Below, in pieces: positions 11,832-59,273 of a DNA stretch of 64,000 nt. The notes below the pieces were generated by a model. The model was not told the DNA's origin and did no database searches. It saw only the letters and a list, made by a program, of their open reading frames with translations. Within the stretch, counting starts at the first letter, position 1. Each line of letters opens with the position of its first letter. Position numbers and translations under genes: made by a program. This stretch comes from Leptolyngbya ohadii IS1 (GTDB taxonomy: Bacteria; Cyanobacteriota; Cyanobacteriia; Elainellales; Elainellaceae), in NCBI RefSeq assembly GCF_002215035.1, contig NZ_NKFP01000006.1, forward strand, positions 1,872,530 through 1,936,529, given 5' to 3'.

Positions 11832-12233
11832 GGGGCTGTAACGGTTTCGACGTTTTGGCGAACGTTGCCTTGTGCAGGTCGAGAGTGAGTCTCCTCTCGT
11901 AAATCAAAGGCTCAAAAAAAAGTAAGTGCGAACAACATCGTACCCTTCGCTCGTAAGGCAGTTGCCGTAGCCTAATTAGGCTTGGTCTGTTGAAATAACC
12001 ACTCTTTGGTTCGAGCGTCTACGGTTTGACTCCGTTAAGGACTGTAGACTTAACCCCAACGGATGCCCCGATGCGCTGCCTCTGGTTGGCTAGTCGGGAA
12101 AGACCTTTACCAGAGAATCCCACCGTCAGGGATAAGTGACGGTTCCTGCCTCGCGGATTAGAGAGGCTAAACCTGTGAATGAATAAGGTGCTAATACCCA
12201 GGGCGGACACGGGTTCGACTCCCGTCGGCTCCA
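11832..12233 (+). ncRNA. ssrA: Transfer-messenger RNA (tmRNA)
   Basis: tmRNA frees stalled ribosomes and tags the unfinished protein for proteolysis. The 5' end GGGGCTGTAACGGTTTCGAC and the 3' end GGGTTCGACTCCCGTCGGCTCCA fold into the tRNA-like acceptor and T arm; the acceptor stem is 7 bp with G-U pairs. The CCA is not fully encoded (TCA follows). The tag frame starts at the resume codon GCG (11928) and reads ANNIVPFARKAVAVA, then TAA at 11973-11975, a typical cyanobacterial tag. It is one-piece, about 402 nt long, with pseudoknot-like segments downstream of the tag. Confidence 0.97.
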
Positions 12234-50374: not shown

Positions 50375-51175
50375 CTAATTAGTCCAGGCAGGATGGGCAA
50401 GCAGCGCAGCGATAACCCGAACACCTCGCAGCTGGTTGGACAGCGGCAAATGTCCCCTGGGAGCAGACAGATTCCAGGTAAACTCCTGCGGATAGCGAGT
50501 CCAGCTATTGCCGTTTTTCCAGCCAATCTGAAACCACAGCTTTTCCCAATTTTTACTGACGCCCAACCAGATCTCACGCTGTACAGAATACCCAAACTTG
50601 CCTTCGGAATAGACGCGCCAGAGGGTATCGATCGTCTTGAGATCGGTTATGGGAAACTTTTCGACCTCCGTGAAGTAAAGCCATTTGCGCTGAACTGCCA
50701 GCGGTCCCGCCAGTTCGCAAAGTTTTTCCAGGGTGAGGCGATCGGCGGCTTCAAACTGCTGCTCCGCCAAAAGGGTCTGGAGCTGGCTATAGTCTATTCC
50801 GCGCTCGGAGGGGAGGGACAGCAAACCCTGGGCAAAGTGGGTCTGGAGGAATTCCCTGACCTTGGGGGACTCCGACTGCATCAGAATCTGGTAGATTTTA
50901 CCTTCTACCGTTCCGGCTGTATTAGCCGCTGCACCTCCACCTGAATTCGCGAGTGCGCCGAAGTCGGTCAGTTTGGGCTGCTGCTCCAGCAGGTATTTCA
51001 TCAGCGCATCCAGTTCGGTTTCTCCCGCATTGGCAGCCTCCTGAACGAGCTGCAACTGGTTTTTTGGAGATGCGGCTTTGAGGCGATCGATTAAATCAGT
51101 CATATCGGCTGTAACCGAGGGATCAGGGGAACTAAGCTGGGCTGAGGGCTGGAGAAACGGCTGTACGTCGGGCAT
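50375..51175 (-). CDS. gun4: Gun4, porphyrin-binding activator of magnesium chelatase
   Basis: Gun4 binds protoporphyrin and Mg-protoporphyrin and stimulates magnesium chelatase at the start of chlorophyll synthesis. The product, 266 residues from the ATG at 51175, has an N-terminal helical bundle (LIDRLKAASPKNQLQLVQEA) and the GUN4 core: EKLCELAGPLAVQRKWLYF, TEVEKFPITDLKTIDTLWR, SVQREIWL, KLWFQIGWK and LSAPRGHLPLSNQLRGVRV. These agree well with the true cyanobacterial Gun4 (Sll0558). It is not one of the multi-domain GUN4 paralogues. TTG at 51187 and ATG at 51103 are alternative starts. A GGDEF gene follows 32 bp downstream. Confidence 0.93.
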   Translation of the reverse strand: MPDVQPFLQPSAQLSSPDPSVTADMTDLIDRLKAASPKNQLQLVQEAANAGETELDALMKYLLEQQPKLTDFGALANSGGGAAANTAGTVEGKIYQILMQSESPKVREFLQTHFAQGLLSLPSERGIDYSQLQTLLAEQQFEAADRLTLEKLCELAGPLAVQRKWLYFTEVEKFPITDLKTIDTLWRVYSEGKFGYSVQREIWLGVSKNWEKLWFQIGWKNGNSWTRYPQEFTWNLSAPRGHLPLSNQLRGVRVIAALLAHPAWTN

Positions 51176-51264
51176 GGAATGGGTCAACTAAACTCGCGAG
51201 ACAAAAACGGAGACAAAACGGCAAAACAGGATTAGCCACAGGCAAATGAGGTCTTGAACTGTCG

Positions 51265-51312
51265 CCAAGCAACTTCAGCCAAGCAACTTCAGCCAAGCAA
51301 CTTCAGCCAAGC
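51265..51312. repeat. Perfect 14-bp tandem repeat upstream of gun4
   Basis: CCAAGCAACTTCAG occurs three times without a mismatch (51265-51306), plus a partial fourth copy. It lies in the presumed gun4 leader. The remaining spacer to 51473 contains nothing else that I can support. Confidence 0.85.
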
Positions 51313-51473: not shown

Positions 51474-52151
51474 TCAGTCGGACAGCAGATCACCTAACTC
51501 CGCCGGGGGGCGATAACCCCGCTCAAAGGCATATCGAATCAGCTGGGAGCGGCTTTCTAGCTGAAGTTTACTGAGGATGTTGCTGAGATGGGTTTGCACC
51601 GTGCGAGGGCTGACAAATAGCCGATCGCCAATTTGCTTGTTGGTGTAGCCCTGGATGACCTCCCAGAAAACTTTTTCTTCGGCGGGGGTTAGCGGCAGCG
51701 GATTGAGGGTCGGGGCAGGAGGAACCTCAGCGGAGGGAGGCTGAGCCTGTTGCAGGAGCCGCTTAATTTCGGCATGGATGCGGCGCGATCGCTCAAGCTG
51801 GGACTCAATTTTGGCAATCAGTTCTTTGGGATCGAAGGGTTTCACCACGTAATCATCGGCTCCCATCTGGTGTCCCTGGATGCGATCGTCCACGTCTTTC
51901 TTGCTGGAAAGGAAGATAAACGGCACAAGTTGCCCTGCCTGACTCGCCCGCAACCGACGACAGAACTCCAGCCCATCCATTTCCGGCATCACCACATCAG
52001 ATACCACTAAATCGGGCGGATTTTCCTCAAAGCGGCTCATCGCCTCTGCTCCCGATCCGGCATCCTCAACCACATACCCGCGATTTTGCAGGTAGCGAAT
52101 CAGAGCAGTTCTGAGGGTTATATCGTCATCAACAATCAGAATGCGTTTCAT
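51474..52151 (-). CDS. LuxR/NarL-type response regulator
   Basis: The 225-residue regulator has a receiver domain (phospho-acceptor Asp near 52 in LVVSDVVMPEMDG, conserved DDD at 8-10 and Lys in VVKPFDPKE), a Gln/Pro-rich linker and a LuxR-type HTH domain (LTPAEEKVFWEVIQGYTNKQIGDRLFVSPRTVQTHLSNIL). It binds DNA when phosphorylated by a sensor kinase, none of which is nearby. It resembles the cyanobacterial single-copy NarL-type regulators and algal Ycf29, but exact identity is open. Start ATG at 52151. Confidence 0.92.
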   Translation of the reverse strand: MKRILIVDDDITLRTALIRYLQNRGYVVEDAGSGAEAMSRFEENPPDLVVSDVVMPEMDGLEFCRRLRASQAGQLVPFIFLSSKKDVDDRIQGHQMGADDYVVKPFDPKELIAKIESQLERSRRIHAEIKRLLQQAQPPSAEVPPAPTLNPLPLTPAEEKVFWEVIQGYTNKQIGDRLFVSPRTVQTHLSNILSKLQLESRSQLIRYAFERGYRPPAELGDLLSD

Positions 52152-52397: not shown

Positions 52398-54917
52398 TTA
52401 CTGACTCAGCAGCGAATCTGGTTGAAAAAGCTGAACGAGCCAGTTCTCCCTTAGCTCAGTCGTCACCACCTCCAGGGCAGTCAGCAAGTCTAGCTCCAAA
52501 TCCCGGTTCTGGATGTCCACAATGAGACGATACAGCAGCTCAAAATCAATGCGATCGGTTTCTTCCATCAGTCGATAATCGCCGTTTGGTGCATTGTTCA
52601 GCTTCTCAATCTCCTCCAATCCCACCTTGCCTTTAATTCGAGGCTGCCGCCCGTCACGATACAGCAAAAAGTTGGTTTCTTTGTGGGTGACAACTAACTC
52701 ATTAAAGTTCTTGAGGAGACTGGTAAAACTGCTGCCCTCAACCTGAAGAAATCCAATCGCAATTTCTCTCGATCGCGCTGATCCAATGCGAAATAGGCGA
52801 TGTTCCGGCAGTTTCTTTTTGCCCAGTCGGAGACAGTCCATCTCAAAGGGCTGAATGCTCTGGAAGGCTTCGGCGATCGTCATCAGTTTGCCAATGTCAT
52901 CGCTGTCGGTAATAATTTGCAGCTTGTCGTAGTCCTGAATTAACGCCTGCCGCTGCTGTTTCAAATAGTCTAGAACTTGGCGCGTGGCATCGGGATGGAC
53001 GATCAACGACTCGGCTAGCGCAGGGTTGAGAAAATCGGTGTCGCTGTCATGGCAATCCCCTGCACCGTTCAGGAACGATATCGCAACCTGGGAATCGGGA
53101 ATTGTGGGTGTGCCGTAAATAGAACCCAGTGCCGTTGCGATCGTTTGCATTGCCTGATGGAATTTGCGGAATTCCTGCTCCAGACGATCGAGCCGCTGTT
53201 CCACGGTCGTTTGTGCTGCGGGTTGCATTGCTTGATCTGTAGCTGAGGACTCCTGGTTCGAGGCAGGGAGGGGAATTCCGCGCGATTTGTAGCGATAGTA
53301 ATCTGCTGCCCGGTTCAAAGCCGAGCGAATGGGACGATGGCTGAGAATTTGTCCCAGTTCTTCTGGCATAAAGAGCCGATTTAAATCAATCCCAATCGCC
53401 CTCACTTTTAGCCGTAAAATTTCCTCAATCTGCTCATGGGTCGGCTGCTGAAGAAAGATTTTGTGCTGGGAAATGCGATCGATCACCGAACCATCAAAGA
53501 AGGTTTGAAACTGCTGCCAGCGATCGGGAAATAGATTGAGAATGATTAAACTATTGGGCACATAGGTAAAGATTTCTTTGACCGCTTCACCAAATCGTTC
53601 TAACAGCGATCGATTGGATTCCAAACCCAGCCCTTCGAGCTGATCGAACACAATAATCAGCGGCTCATCCAGCAGGGAAAGCTTGCTGAAGACCGAAATG
53701 GCTTCCAGGGAAAAATCCTCTTTGCTCAGGTCGGCGCTCCAGTTCTCCAGCCCAATCAACTCTGCGTCTTCCGGTTCTAGCTCATTTGCTACCAGCCATC
53801 GCGTCGCTAATTCCTTGCGGCGGGGTTCGGTATAGCTGCAAAACTTGATAATTCCTTTAATAATTTGCGCTGAGTAGCCGGACAAACCGTATTGACTCAT
53901 CCACCATTCGTTGGTACGTCGCTCAATGTGCTGCCACAGCTTGCGTTTCAGGTCAGTTCCTTCCCTCGCTAGACTGTAGAGCGCCAGCGGATTGTTACCA
54001 ATTCTCGACAGAATCGTTTCGTCGTTATTGTTCTGCTGAGAGGTTGCCTGAAGGATGCGAACAAAACTATGCGCCAACAAGTTTTCTAGCTGCGTAAAGC
54101 CATTGCCAGGAACGGTTTCGACAAAGGATTTGAGAATGCGCGTGTAGATATGATAGAGAACGGTATCGGCATTGTTGGGCTGACCGATAAACAGCAGTCG
54201 GTTCACCTGCAACAGCTCCTTTGCCAGCCGCATAATCAGGTGGGTTTTGCCCGTCCCCGGCTCTCCTATGATCACTACACCCTGGCTCTGATGGTTGCGA
54301 TCATCCCGAATATCGTCGATTGTTGCTTTTAGTAGCTCAAACTCGTCCTGATAGATTTGCTTTAGATCAGGGTGATCCTGAAAGGGGTTATCGACCTTGC
54401 TGCTGCTAAACGGATTGGGTTTGTCTTTGAGAACGTCTCGCAGGGAAGCGGAGGACTTGAGTTCCATAAGTTTGCAGTAAAGCTGGTAGGTAAACTCAGC
54501 ATCGTAGCGAGCAGAGTGGGCTTGCTGCGGATTGAAGTATTTCTGATTAACTTTTAAGTTTAGTTTCTTACTGAGATATTCGAGCGAATAGCTGGCGAAT
54601 CCCGGCAAATATCGATGGGCGAGTTCATAGGTGCAATCGATCTGAAGCCCTCGTTTCCAGGGCATTCCAGCTTGACGACAGCTTCGTCGCAGCACCTGAA
54701 CGTCGTGATTGGCATGGTGGAAAATGACCTGCTTTTTCTCAGCAAGCCGAAAGAACGTTTGCAGCATTTCCGCCAGCGATCGCTTTTTGAGCCGTCCCGC
54801 ATGGTCAGGGTGGTTTTGCTCAAATGCCTCGTACAGCAGTCGTCCGTCGCGATCGATGATGGCAATTTCGCTAATCGCGTCGCTTCCTTCGGTGTCAACG
54901 ACAATAAACTCTTTCAC
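52398..54917 (-). CDS. DEDDh exonuclease fused to a P-loop ATPase (candidate novel system)
   Basis: The 839-residue product combines three parts. Residues 1-150 form a DEDDh 3'-5' exonuclease domain with all catalytic residues visible: D8 and E10 (VDTEG), D72 (HANHD), H134 and D139 (HSARYDAEF). Residues about 190-560 are a P-loop ATPase with Walker A GEPGTGKT at 218-225 and Walker B LIIVFDQLEG near 420, followed by SLIILNLFPDRW (sensor-like) and RPIRSALNRAADYYR (helical lid). A predicted coiled coil (VEQRLDRLEQEFRKFHQAM, near 595-615) precedes a C-terminal domain of about 200 residues that I cannot identify. The start is GTG at 54917. It stands alone, divergent from a DUF1348 gene. A genome-maintenance or phage-defence role is inference only. 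Confidence 0.85.
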   Translation of the reverse strand: MKEFIVVDTEGSDAISEIAIIDRDGRLLYEAFEQNHPDHAGRLKKRSLAEMLQTFFRLAEKKQVIFHHANHDVQVLRRSCRQAGMPWKRGLQIDCTYELAHRYLPGFASYSLEYLSKKLNLKVNQKYFNPQQAHSARYDAEFTYQLYCKLMELKSSASLRDVLKDKPNPFSSSKVDNPFQDHPDLKQIYQDEFELLKATIDDIRDDRNHQSQGVVIIGEPGTGKTHLIMRLAKELLQVNRLLFIGQPNNADTVLYHIYTRILKSFVETVPGNGFTQLENLLAHSFVRILQATSQQNNNDETILSRIGNNPLALYSLAREGTDLKRKLWQHIERRTNEWWMSQYGLSGYSAQIIKGIIKFCSYTEPRRKELATRWLVANELEPEDAELIGLENWSADLSKEDFSLEAISVFSKLSLLDEPLIIVFDQLEGLGLESNRSLLERFGEAVKEIFTYVPNSLIILNLFPDRWQQFQTFFDGSVIDRISQHKIFLQQPTHEQIEEILRLKVRAIGIDLNRLFMPEELGQILSHRPIRSALNRAADYYRYKSRGIPLPASNQESSATDQAMQPAAQTTVEQRLDRLEQEFRKFHQAMQTIATALGSIYGTPTIPDSQVAISFLNGAGDCHDSDTDFLNPALAESLIVHPDATRQVLDYLKQQRQALIQDYDKLQIITDSDDIGKLMTIAEAFQSIQPFEMDCLRLGKKKLPEHRLFRIGSARSREIAIGFLQVEGSSFTSLLKNFNELVVTHKETNFLLYRDGRQPRIKGKVGLEEIEKLNNAPNGDYRLMEETDRIDFELLYRLIVDIQNRDLELDLLTALEVVTTELRENWLVQLFQPDSLLSQ

Positions 54918-55075: not shown

Positions 55076-55513
55076 ATGGCTAATTCCACCACCCGTCCCC
55101 CCCTGCCGCCTTTTACCCTGGAGACCGCTAAGGCAAAAGTTCAAGCCGCCGAAGATGCCTGGAATACCCGCGATCCTGAACGGGTTGCCCTCGCCTACAC
55201 CGAAGATTCCGAGTGGCGAAACCGGGCTGAGTTTGTGTACGGACGTGCCCAGATTGTAGAATTCCTCAAGCGCAAATGGGCGAAGGAACTGGACTACCGC
55301 CTGAAGAAAGAGCTGTGGTGCTTCATGGACAACAAGATTGCCGTGCGGTTTGAGTACGAGTGGCACGACGATTCCGGCTTCTGGTATCGCTCCTACGGCA
55401 ACGAAAACTGGGAATTTGCCGAAAATGGACTGATGATGCGCCGCTACGCCAGTATTAACGACGTGCCCATCAAAGAATCCGATCGCAAATTCCGCTGGGA
55501 GCGCAAAAGCTAA
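55076..55513 (+). CDS. DUF1348/NTF2-like family protein
   Basis: The 145-residue product has the compact SnoaL/NTF2 fold pattern of DUF1348: helices [21 protein letters not shown], then [61 protein letters not shown], and a Arg-rich end. No active-site assignment can be made. Its stop TAA overlaps the ATG of the next gene (TAATG), so translation is coupled to a PPOX-type flavoprotein. No clear ribosome site precedes the ATG at 55076. Confidence 0.88.
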
Positions 55514-56076
55514 TGGCTAAGGTCTACGATCGCATTACCGACGAACTCACCAGATTTATCCAGTCCCAGCAAATCTTTTTTGTCGCGACGGCTCCCCTCA
55601 GTTCCAGTGGACATATTAATTTGTCGCCCAAAGGACTGGACAGCTTTCGCATTCTCTCCCCCAATCGCGTCGTTTATCTGGATCTGACGGGCAGCGGTAA
55701 TGAAACTTCAGCACACCTGGCAGAAAACCAGCGGATTACCTTCATGTTCTGTGCCTTCCAAGGGAAGCCGATGATTCTCCGGCTCTACGGACAGGGGCAA
55801 GTCCTACTACCAGATTCCCCAGACTGGCAAACTCACTTGGATTTATTTCCTGCCATTCCCGGAACTCGTCAGATTATCGTGGCAGAGATCGATCGTGTCC
55901 AAACTTCCTGCGGCACAGGGGTTCCTCTCTTTCAGTACGAGGGACAGCGATCGGAGATGGTGGAATGGGCAGAGAAGAAGGGCGATCGAGGAATGTGGGA
56001 TTATTGGCAGCTAAAGAATCAAACCAGTGCCGATGGTTTGCCGACTCCGCTATCCGCCTGGATGGAACGGCAGTAA
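55513..56076 (+). CDS. Pyridoxamine 5'-phosphate oxidase-like (PPOX split-barrel) protein
   Basis: The 187-residue product has the FMN-binding split-barrel layout: QIFFVATAPLSSSGHINLSPKG near residues 21-42, RVVYLDLTGSGNETSAHL, RITFMFCAFQGKPMILRLYG, and a later EIDRVQTSCGTGVPLF. The N-terminal KVYDRITDELTRFIQSQ precedes the barrel. PPOX-like proteins reduce or bind diverse substrates such as F420, FMN or heme; the partner is unknown. It is coupled to the DUF1348 gene by a TAATG overlap and converges on the lipoprotein gene with 16 bp between stops. Confidence 0.88.
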   Translation: MAKVYDRITDELTRFIQSQQIFFVATAPLSSSGHINLSPKGLDSFRILSPNRVVYLDLTGSGNETSAHLAENQRITFMFCAFQGKPMILRLYGQGQVLLPDSPDWQTHLDLFPAIPGTRQIIVAEIDRVQTSCGTGVPLFQYEGQRSEMVEWAEKKGDRGMWDYWQLKNQTSADGLPTPLSAWMERQ

Positions 56077-56853: not shown

Positions 56854-57195
56854 TTAGTAGCGATAGTTGTTGTTGCCGGGCTTGTGAACGATGAAGCTCA
56901 TCACCTGGCACTGCTTGATGTTGTCGAATGCCACAACGCGGATGTAGCAATTGGGGAACTCGGAGCGGCACTGCTGCACTTCGCTCAGAACTTCCTGCGG
57001 GCTGCGAGCGTTGAACAGGGGTAGCTTCCACATCGTCCAGTAGTACATATCAGCGGCAGAGTCCTCGTTGAACTCGATGCAAGGGAAATAGCCCTGGTCG
57101 ATCGTGTACTGGATCTGACGAGCGATTTGAGCATCGCTGAGCGGAGGCAGATAGGAAAAAGTTTCGTAGCGCCGCTCTTTGGATAAAGTCTTCAT
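56854..57195 (-). CDS. rbcS: RuBisCO small subunit (form IB)
   Basis: RbcS caps the L8 core of RuBisCO in the carboxysome. The 113-residue product starts [42 protein letters not shown]-like (split here as the N-terminal domain) and shows [38 protein letters not shown] and SFIVHKPG. Length and sequence are standard for cyanobacterial form IB. It is third in the rbcL-rbcX-rbcS operon, 99 bp after rbcX, and ends 38 bp before the terminator. Confidence 0.96.
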
Positions 57196-57294
57196 GGTTG
57201 ACCTGTTGAGTTAAAGGTTTACACGCGCAGGATTAAAGTCGCTTTCGGCGAACCTTGCTGCTGAGTGGAATTGCTAATCAAGATCTGCCGGACG

Positions 57295-57717
57295 CTAATC
57301 GCCATGCTCACTATCGGGACGGCTCTCTGAACGGGAGGGAGCGGGATCGATCGAACCATCGGGATGGTTGGCTTCGACGCTAACCTGGGTCATGCGCTCT
57401 AGCTGCTGACGACGCTGCTCGATATTTGCCTGCTGGATGGTCGATCGCAGCATTTCGGGCAGCACCTCGGCAATTTCCTCTGCAATATGTTCACGAACGG
57501 TCAGAATCCGAAAAGCCAATTCCTGTCGTTCCCGGAACAGCGATCGCAGAAACGCTTCACCATCCTGAACTCCGACCTGATTGGCAAACTGACGCAGCCA
57601 ATGTGCCCTGGGCGGATCGGTTTCATCGAGTTGGGCAGCCACCGTTCGCATCGCCTGATAGGTGAGGTAGCTACTGAGCGTTTTGGCAGTATCCTTGGCA
57701 ATTTGCCTGAGATCCAT
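57295..57717 (-). CDS. rbcX: RuBisCO assembly chaperone RbcX
   Basis: RbcX binds the C-terminal tail of RbcL and keeps dimers ready for L8 assembly. The 140-residue product has the four-helix fold with RQIAKDTAKTLSSYLTYQAMRTV, RAHWLRQFANQVGVQDGEAFL and ILTVREHIAEEIAEVLPEML, and a polar, probably disordered C-terminus (SIDPAPSRSESRPDSEHGD). It lies between rbcL (125 bp upstream) and rbcS, the common beta-cyanobacterial order. Confidence 0.95.
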   Translation of the reverse strand: MDLRQIAKDTAKTLSSYLTYQAMRTVAAQLDETDPPRAHWLRQFANQVGVQDGEAFLRSLFRERQELAFRILTVREHIAEEIAEVLPEMLRSTIQQANIEQRRQQLERMTQVSVEANHPDGSIDPAPSRSESRPDSEHGD

Positions 57718-57842
57718 AGGCAGCGGGGGAATGAAGGATGAGGCATGAGGTAAGAATAACAGCTAATTCCAGTTTGGCTAGAACGAGACTGCGATCGCCG
57801 CTCCGCCTATCCTCCATTCCTGCTGCGAATTAGATCTGGGAA

Positions 57843-59273
57843 TTAGATGGTGTCCTGAGCTTCAAACTCGAACTTGATTTCCTTCCACAGTTCGCAAGCC
57901 GTTGCCAGTTCAGGAGACCAGCGGCAAGCTTCACGGATGATGTCGCCACCTTCACGCATCAGGTTACGACCTTCGTTCCGGGCTTGAACGCAAGCTTCCA
58001 GAGCCACACGGTTTGCCGTAGCACCAGGCGCGTTACCCCAGGGGTGACCCAGCGTACCACCACCGAACTGAAGCACGGAGTCGTCGCCGAAGATTTCAAC
58101 CAGCGCAGGCATGTGCCACACGTGGATACCACCGGACGCAACTGCCATCACGCCAGGCATGGAAGCCCAGTCTTGAGTGAAGTAAATACCCTTCGAGCGG
58201 TCTTGCTCCACATAGTTCTCACGCAGCAGATCCACGAAACCGAGGGTCACTGCCTGGTCGCCCTCCAGCTTACCCACAACGGTTCCGGTGTGGATGTGGT
58301 CACCACCGGACATCCGCAGACACTTCGCCAGAACGCGGAAGTGCATCCCGTGGTTCTTCTGACGGTCGATCACAGCGTGCATTGCGCGGTGGATGTGCAG
58401 CAGAACGCCATTGTCGCGGCACCACTTAGACAGGGTAGTGTTTGCGGTGAAGCCTGCGGTCAAGAAGTCGTGCATGATGATGGGCATACCGAGTTCTTTC
58501 GCGTACTCAGCCCGCTTCAGCATTTCTTCGCAGGTTGCAGCGGTCACGTTTAAGTAGTGACCCTTGATTTCACCCGTCTCAGCCTGTGCTTTGTGGATGG
58601 CTTCAGCAACAAAGGTGAAACGATCGCGCCAGCGCTGGAACGGCTGGGAGTTGATGTTCTCGTCGTCCTTCGTGAAGTCCAGACCGCCGCGCAGACACTC
58701 ATATACTGCACGACCGTAGTTCTTCGCAGACAGACCGAGCTTCGGCTTAATCGTACAGCCCAGCAGCGGACGACCGTACTTGTTGATCTTGTCGCGCTCA
58801 ACCTGAATTCCGTGGGGAGGTCCCTGGAATGTCTTCAGGTAAGCCACGGGAATCCGCAGGTCTTCCAGACGCAGAGCTTTCAGCGCTTTGAAACCGAACA
58901 CGTTACCCACGATCGAGGTCAGCATGTTGGTGACAGAGCCTTCCTCGAACAGATCCAGAGGATAAGCAATGTACGCGATGAACTGGTTGTCTTCGCCAGG
59001 AACGGGTTCGATATCGTAGCAGCGACCCTTGTAGCGATCGAGATCCGTCAGCAGGTCCGTCCAAACGGTTGTCCAGGTTCCGGTGGAGGATTCAGCGGCA
59101 ACAGCTGCGCCAGCTTCTTCATAAGGAACTCCAGGCTGAGGAGTCACACGGAACGCTGCCAGGATGTCCGTATCCTTCGGCGTGTAGTCAGGCGTGTAAT
59201 AGGTCAAGCGATAGTCTTTTACGCCTGCCTGATACCCAGCTTTGGTCTGGGTTTTAGTTTGAGAGTACGACAT
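57843..59273 (-). CDS. rbcL: RuBisCO large subunit (form IB)
   Basis: RbcL fixes CO2 onto ribulose 1,5-bisphosphate in the carboxysome. The 476-residue product carries the active-site lysine (carbamylated) in the segment [16 protein letters not shown] near 197-212, the [10 protein letters not shown]-like [14 protein letters not shown] loop 6 region, [14 protein letters not shown], and [16 protein letters not shown] near the end. Length is normal. AGGAAGGG precedes the ATG at 59273. It heads the rbcL-rbcX-rbcS operon behind a 550-bp leader/promoter spacer. Confidence 0.98.

Follow-up and report, generated by a model that had tools for sequence, protein, structure and literature searches.

A 64,000-nucleotide stretch of the Leptolyngbya ohadii IS1 genome (contig NZ_NKFP01000006.1, positions 1,872,530 to 1,936,529; hereafter the window) carries at 52398-54917 a gene for a protein of 839 residues, in which a DEDDh exonuclease domain is followed by an AAA+ ATPase domain of the Orc1/Cdc6/TnsC fold, a linker and a C-terminal alpha/beta domain. 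We consider it nearly an even chance that this fusion protein works as a one-protein ATPase-nuclease directed at DNA, akin to the Orc/CDC6 conflict ATPases, whose target would most likely be invading DNA, whether from phages, plasmids or transformation. A more specific version of this proposal, held somewhat more tentatively, is that the gene represents a previously undescribed one-protein anti-invader system. In it a DEDDh exonuclease would be joined to an ATP switch resembling Orc/TnsC and to a dead reader domain with the endonuclease fold; the system would have passed between cyanobacteria and giant sulfur bacteria, and would unite in one chain what is divided among three genes in its kin.

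Domain architecture of the fusion protein

The gene is a single minus-strand open reading frame (ORF), which comprises 839 codons, starts with GTG and has its stop codon at 52398-52400; an initial annotation made from the sequence alone had likewise described one gene for 839 residues. The start position is approximately shared by the homologues in alignment A1, which consists of 23 sequences (the window protein and 22 other extracted homologues); seven of 42 loci (L005, L035, L036, L039, L041, L044 and L050) were left out because the extraction motif was too narrow. For residue conservation we used alignment A2. Relatives are encoded by 105 stretches of GTDB contigs, of which 80 were kept and 79 gave a hit under the filter (L139 gave none). 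After removal of 22 loci for coverage or split ORFs, and of L079, L110 and L132 from the remaining 57 for a variant motif, 54 rows were left, making 55 with the window. The initial annotation had described the gene as alone and divergent, which is true of its neighbors but not of its sequence, as the 105 relatives indicate.

Residues 1-160 (54438..54917, minus strand, as are all parts of the gene given below) form the DEDDh 3′-5′ exonuclease domain, according to Pfam, VIA fold matches and conservation. In the Pfam scan of the window protein RNase_T matched with an E-value of 4.6e-9 and 37.5 bits (cutoff 24). The catalytic residues D8, E10, D72, H134 and D139, from which an intact active site had been proposed, are all present and do not vary in any of the 55 full-length rows of A2, window counted, with the reservation that D8 and E10 sit in the motif DTEG, used both to gather the relatives (as one of two patterns) and to filter them, a selection that does not affect D72, H134 and D139. 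Relative L110 has DTVG, and hence is without the catalytic glutamate. The VIA matches reached a Z-score of 17.5 with DNA polymerase 9qpc_A, 16-17 with DnaQ and 15-16 with RNase T, and the Z of 16-17.5 over about 150 residues, with a root-mean-square deviation (rmsd) of 2.4-3.3 in the top rows except DinG, indicates an RNase H-like exonuclease fold. In the comparison with CRISPR-associated DEDDh and Cas2-DEDDh, the sole profile matched by the window protein was DEDDh. Metal-dependent 3′-5′ exonuclease activity is predicted for this domain.

The closeness of RNase T in fold, and the fact that the DEDDh fold acts on RNA as well as on DNA, would agree with an enzyme of RNA processing or decay, similar to RNase T or oligoribonuclease, that is regulated by its ATPase. 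We regard this as improbable, since ATPases of the Orc/TnsC type bind DNA, and the partner domains found with the ATPase kin described below, FtsK and PD-(D/E)XK, are DNA-directed.

The ATPase domain covers residues 161-555 (53253..54437) and matched Pfam AAA_16 with an E-value of 2.5e-9 and 38.3 bits (cutoff 32.6). Walker A, GEPGTGKT at residues 218-225 (54243..54266), keeps G218, G221, G223, K224 and T225 in all 55 rows, and Walker B, LIIVFD at 420-425 followed by QLE up to residue 428 (53634..53660), reads FDQLE in 55 of 55. Both motifs lie where the initial annotation had placed them, and structure prediction by AlphaFold2 together with VIA sharpened its P-loop ATPase to the Orc1/Cdc6/TnsC fold: residues 162-560 matched Orc1/Cdc6 entries with Z 14.3-15.8 and TnsC with Z 14.7-15.2, the best being 7jgr_G (a Drosophila ORC-Cdc6 entry, 15.8), Cdc6 1fnn (15.7) and TnsC 7mcs (15.2). 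Assigned by position, the sensor 1 residue N461 is kept in 53 of the 55 rows and the sensor 2 arginine R531 in all of them. The domain therefore shares with the Orc/CDC6 clade the AAA+ fold, Walker A and the sensors, but not the DE ending of Walker B, where Q replaces the usual E in all 55 rows (FDQ). Among the kin ATPases, FDQ or FDN is found in 10 of 10 (A6) and FDE in two of four (A7). A glutamine at this place, behind the aspartate of Walker B, suggests an ATP switch that hydrolyzes slowly and not a motor, and E428 may replace the missing glutamate. Inspected by eye, the secondary structure of two predictions showed no C-terminal winged helix, either behind the ATPase or at the C-terminal end; no fold search aimed at it was made.

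An AlphaFold2 model of the whole protein, built from the 55 full-length rows, gave a mean predicted local distance difference test score (pLDDT) of 85.8 and a predicted template modeling score of 0.75. The previously described order of exonuclease, ATPase and C-terminal domain is correct. The linker (52998..53252) was modeled as one helix at residues 572-600 and is otherwise mostly disordered, with pLDDT below 50 at 556-571 and 601-640; a coiled coil had been proposed for this region, and what is left of it is this one helix, the rest having low confidence.

The C-terminal domain (residues 641-835; 52413..52997), modeled alone (model m6e203d5f1196, residues 642-833), is well folded with a pLDDT of 94.7 and has the order alpha, three strands, alpha, strand. 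Among the best 25 of 32 Pfam matches, no family reached the last 200 residues. The best VIA match was SfsA (Z 6.1), followed by 2okf (5.9), the defense protein Hna (5.7), and Can2 and the BspD6I nickase (5.5 each), and other folds such as acetyl-CoA carboxylase were also listed. We take SfsA, BspD6I, EndoMS, Can2, EcoT38I, BstEII, BamHI and the XisH-type entries 2okf and 2inb to be the rows of this list with the restriction endonuclease fold. Foldseek gave nothing at 1e-3 or better for this domain (best 2e-3), and the rows above 1e-3 included a viral RNA polymerase subunit, many APOBEC chains and, of the endonuclease fold, Mus81-Eme1, EcoT38I, EcoO109I, EndoMS and MspJI. Because D...ExK, the PD-(D/E)XK signature, was not seen in the second or third strand when the alignment was read by eye, we tentatively describe the modeled domain as an inactive restriction endonuclease fold. 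The C-terminal part of about 200 residues, to which the initial annotation had given no identity, is accordingly a folded domain to which a restriction-endonuclease-like fold can now be tentatively assigned.

Selection, distribution and phylogeny

Compared with the homologue of the same genus (L066), the gene showed 0.13 nonsynonymous (dN) and 1.80 synonymous (dS) substitutions per site, the latter being near saturation. By domain, dN/dS was 0.21/1.40 for the exonuclease, 0.05/1.81 for the ATPase and 0.16/2.14 for the C-terminal domain, indicating that the fusion gene is under purifying selection in every domain. An orphan or chance ORF is ruled out by this selection together with the 105 relatives.

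The full family was found in 11 of 98 genomes, own included (in G063 the match lies in more than one reading frame), and matches at 1e-20 were found in 30 of 386 cyanobacterial genomes, again own included, and in 20 of 143 genera. In the genome of L. ohadii itself we looked for a second copy of the fusion gene and for a separate kin-type ATPase, and found neither. According to the record titles, the GTDB relatives come from Cyanobacteriota, Pseudomonadota (Thiotrichales-type sulfur bacteria, relatives of Thiomargarita and Beggiatoa) and Campylobacterota. In a tree of 82 rows, from which L058 was left out as a double of L084 and others for coverage, the distribution of the three phyla requires four changes. 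The 21 Pseudomonadota rows share a single fork (support 84) with one cyanobacterium and four rows of Campylobacterota, and the tree is weak near its root. Eighteen of the 79 GTDB loci match only past residue 10, and some of these are fragments.

Nine of 72,556 plasmid records matched, seven of them over at least 80% of the query, and one plasmid copy is from Synechococcus elongatus PCC 11801, which belongs to a species widely used in laboratories. On a plasmid of a lichen-associated Nostoc (L062, 6001-6252) the match is confined to exonuclease residues 3-85 and is followed by an ISH3 transposase gene; it is probably a decayed copy. A phage gene was considered and rejected, as 50,697 phage records gave no match at 1e-5. 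No relative was found in 33 pattern stretches of viral contigs, and searching BFVD by structure yielded TMq values of at most 0.21 among the best 50 rows.

Relation to stand-alone ATPases and predicted conflict operons

The query also matches cyanobacterial ATPases of 600-800 residues without this exonuclease, with 22-28% identity in the longer matches, and profile comparison (hhalign) over the ATPase between the fusion and these stand-alone kin gave probabilities of 99.3 and 99.4. Fourteen regions around stand-alone ATPases, chosen from genome-search hits, were fetched, and 13 gave a blastp hit (L181 gave none). The neighbor of the ATPase in all 13 is a small gene of either the c1 family (nine regions) or the c3 family (four); a winged helix was a sub-threshold Pfam match in one of the five small c1/c3 genes scanned. 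The c1-type operons (L170-L174, L176, L178, L179 and L183) contain in four of nine cases (L173, L174, L176 and L179) a c4 gene, whose products carry DNA_pol_A_exo1, PDDEXK_1 and FtsK in the three scanned (L176 was outside the scan); two c4 proteins scanned with PADLOC matched SspH with E-values of 6e-67 and 3.9e-65. The c3-type operons (L175, L177, L180 and L182) consist of the small c3 gene, the ATPase and a c2 gene in four of four, and the c2 genes of L175 and L180, the two that were scanned, matched DUF1802 and, below threshold, Mrr_cat (0.0014 and 0.099).

Around the fusion gene, a search of 1,247 ORFs from 86 loci gave no homologue of c1-c4 at 1e-5; two of the loci are the same plasmid, many flanks end at contig ends, and the query as a control gave 88 hit lines. 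With no such homologue in the flanks, the fusion protein seems to work without c1-c4 partners. This ATPase group is thus associated with two families of 3′-5′ exonuclease, RNase_T in the fusion and DNA_pol_A_exo1 in the kin, which may have joined it independently.

Operons of Orc/CDC6, inactive restriction endonuclease (iREase), HerA/FtsK and winged helix-turn-helix (wHTH) genes have been predicted to counter invaders, and a second class of Orc/CDC6, REase-ASCH and wHTH operons is given a likely anti-invader role (Rakesh, Aravind and Krishnan 2024, PMC10853773). The same source describes a 3′-5′ exonuclease fused to the HerA/FtsK component, and its main text has the word "exonuclease" once and "DEDD" never. 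Matched against that text, the c1/c4 and c3/c2 operons fit the two classes. The window protein resembles the Orc/CDC6-iREase operons in the ATPase, related by profile, in the presence of a 3′-5′ exonuclease, and possibly in the tentative inactive endonuclease-like domain after the ATPase, for which many restriction-endonuclease-fold rows were obtained, all with Z of 6.1 or less. It differs in being one chain, with a DEDDh exonuclease of the RNase_T type N-terminal on the ATPase itself, and in having no HerA/FtsK, no active PD-(D/E)XK and no visible C-terminal wHTH. Because neither a HerA/FtsK nor a wHTH partner gene was found, by modest means (1e-5, 86 loci; a distant wHTH could escape), the fusion is a single-chain variant related to the operon class of PMC10853773 and not a member of it. 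Our literature search found no paper on, and no experiment with, a DEDDh-Orc fusion.

Other known systems are less close. SspFGH and DndFGH share the logic of nuclease plus ATPase, and the FtsK part of the kin's c4 protein resembles SspH, but the window protein has no F, G or H domain. The DndF family gave no match in 146 cyanobacterial genomes, a negative that says little because the control also matched nowhere. SaDinG, a DinG with an N-terminal 3′-5′ exonuclease (PMC12345164), likewise has a DEDDh domain and an ATPase in one chain, but its ATPase is a superfamily 2 helicase and that of the window protein an AAA+ of the Orc/TnsC type, without the features of such a motor. The VIA match to DinG (Z 16.4) had an rmsd of 15 over 271 residues, which we read as superposition of the exonuclease part only. 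TnsC of Tn7-like transposons and archaeal Orc1/Cdc6 share the AAA+ fold (Z 14-16), and lack both this exonuclease and the endonuclease-like C-terminal domain.

Genes near the fusion gene

In the window, genes for GUN4 (50375-51187) and a response regulator (51474-52151), both on the minus strand, lie on one side of the fusion gene, and the divergent plus-strand genes for DUF1348 (55076-55513) and PNPOx (55513-56076) on the other. A cluster at 56854-59273, which we take from its sequence to be that of RuBisCO, lies further on. The gap between the GUN4 and response regulator genes contains a perfect tandem repeat with a 14-base unit in 3.5 copies (51264-51312), and a transfer-messenger RNA gene with the tag ANNIVPFARKAVAVA is located at 11832-12233.

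In the family of the window, five of 36 genomes carry the fusion gene. In the four carriers other than the window an aldolase-like gene lies on the far side, directly or one to two genes off. In G011, the aldolase-like gene and PNPOx are adjacent and the fusion gene is missing, and a search of 16 PNPOx regions without the gene gave no remnant (best E-value 1.5). The gene is thus stable, single-copy and dispensable in this family.

The neighborhood analysis that the initial annotation had called for covered 992 neighbor proteins. It yielded no conserved partner, the largest clusters (7-10 loci) being at scattered positions. The clusters that keep a fixed position have only four or five loci each and stem from related strains (four Planktothrix-type, four Nostocales, and four Nostoc-type with DUF262). 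The gene of the DUF262 cluster is downstream in Nostoc-type L056, L057, L080, L083 and L134, directly so in four, and in L057 the region is split by a transposase gene; these five loci are likely one lineage. Near the six whole plasmid copies viewed, defense-like genes were present (nuclease, methylase, TIR or HerA-NurA genes; no control set). By annotation, a Tolypothrix plasmid (L059, 6059-12448) has a DUF87 (HerA-type) and NurA pair upstream of the fusion gene.

Transposases occur near two plasmid copies, and TnsC 7mcs is among the best ATPase folds, as would be expected of a helper of a mobile element or of transposition, with a TnsC-like target selector and an end-processing exonuclease. 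Unlike TnsC, the fusion gene has no recurrently placed transposase or recombinase among the 992 neighbors (one transposase-like cluster, five loci, is scattered), and its place is stable over several genera. We judge this explanation to be the least probable of those considered, just below the RNA enzyme.

Function and significance

In the mechanism we favor, the Orc/TnsC-like AAA+ part, in its ATP-bound form, would assemble on DNA that is foreign or abnormal, and the C-terminal endonuclease-fold domain would read DNA or a partner without cutting. The N-terminal DEDDh domain would thereby be brought to free 3′ ends and trim them. DNA as the substrate, the ATP switch, the order of events and the defense role are all inferred. 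That the gene is a defense module, as the initial annotation had supposed, is suggested by the ATPase kin in nuclease operons predicted to counter invaders, the copies on plasmids, the patchy spread and the presence in three phyla, but part of the evidence points the other way.

Several observations weigh against the reading of the fusion protein as an anti-invader ATPase-nuclease. First, in the family of the window the gene keeps its place, being divergent to PNPOx in all five carriers, with DUF1348 intervening in the window. Most genome-contig copies are also surrounded by genes that, judged from their sequences, read as housekeeping. Second, a PADLOC defense-island test at 1e-10, covering 118 of the 134 proteins encoded next to the gene and 120 of the 267 encoded farther away, matched 102 adjacent versus 103 distant families and showed no clear adjacent excess among the 25 listed for each, the distant set being a weak control that possibly belongs to the same island and contains plain defense families. 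The one adjacent excess was HEC-05 (six of 118; not among the 25 families listed for the distant set), which may stem from related Nostoc loci. Third, ATPase-first proteins with no exonuclease domain exist, nine of them sulfur-bacterial and in one clade, in addition to L107, L109 and L140. Because these proteins begin directly at the ATPase, the exonuclease is dispensable in them and thus a module that not every relative has. The form without exonuclease in giant sulfur bacteria is that of L120, L124-L126, L128-L131 and L143, and judged by contig prefix both forms occur, on separate contigs, in four assemblies (L069/L143, L076/L120, L078/L129 and L085/L128). Fourth, comparison of the C-terminal domain with the profile of the kin ATPases gave a probability of 0.1 and an E-value of 0.46, below significance, and for this reason we do not claim common descent with the kin's domain. 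Finally, blastp may overlook fast-evolving wHTH partners.

That the gene keeps its place among housekeeping-like genes in the family of the window would also be consistent with maintenance of host or plasmid DNA. In this role the Orc-like ATPase would be loaded at forks, gaps or breaks, and the exonuclease would tidy up 3′ ends during repair, replication restart or recombination. In accordance with that, the best exonuclease folds are of the polymerase-proofreading and RNase T types (DinG with exonuclease is also listed), replication initiators share the fold of the ATPase, and a ParA gene adjoins the fusion gene on two Synechococcus elongatus plasmids. However, the gene was not found in about nine-tenths of the cyanobacterial genomes examined, the PNPOx regions of relatives hold no remnant of it, three phyla carry the fusion, and the ATPase kin are in nuclease operons of the kind predicted to fight invaders (PMC10853773). 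We therefore regard maintenance as less likely than the anti-invader reading, though as a serious alternative, ahead of the transposition helper and the RNA enzyme.

If the fusion protein is indeed an anti-invader ATPase-nuclease, an Orc/Cdc6-like ATPase directly gating an exonuclease would be a minimal form, testable with one gene, of the Orc/CDC6 systems that were predicted from sequence in PMC10853773. It would also help to explain how replication-initiator ATPases came to serve immunity, and would have a bearing on how mat-forming cyanobacteria and giant sulfur bacteria exchange genes.

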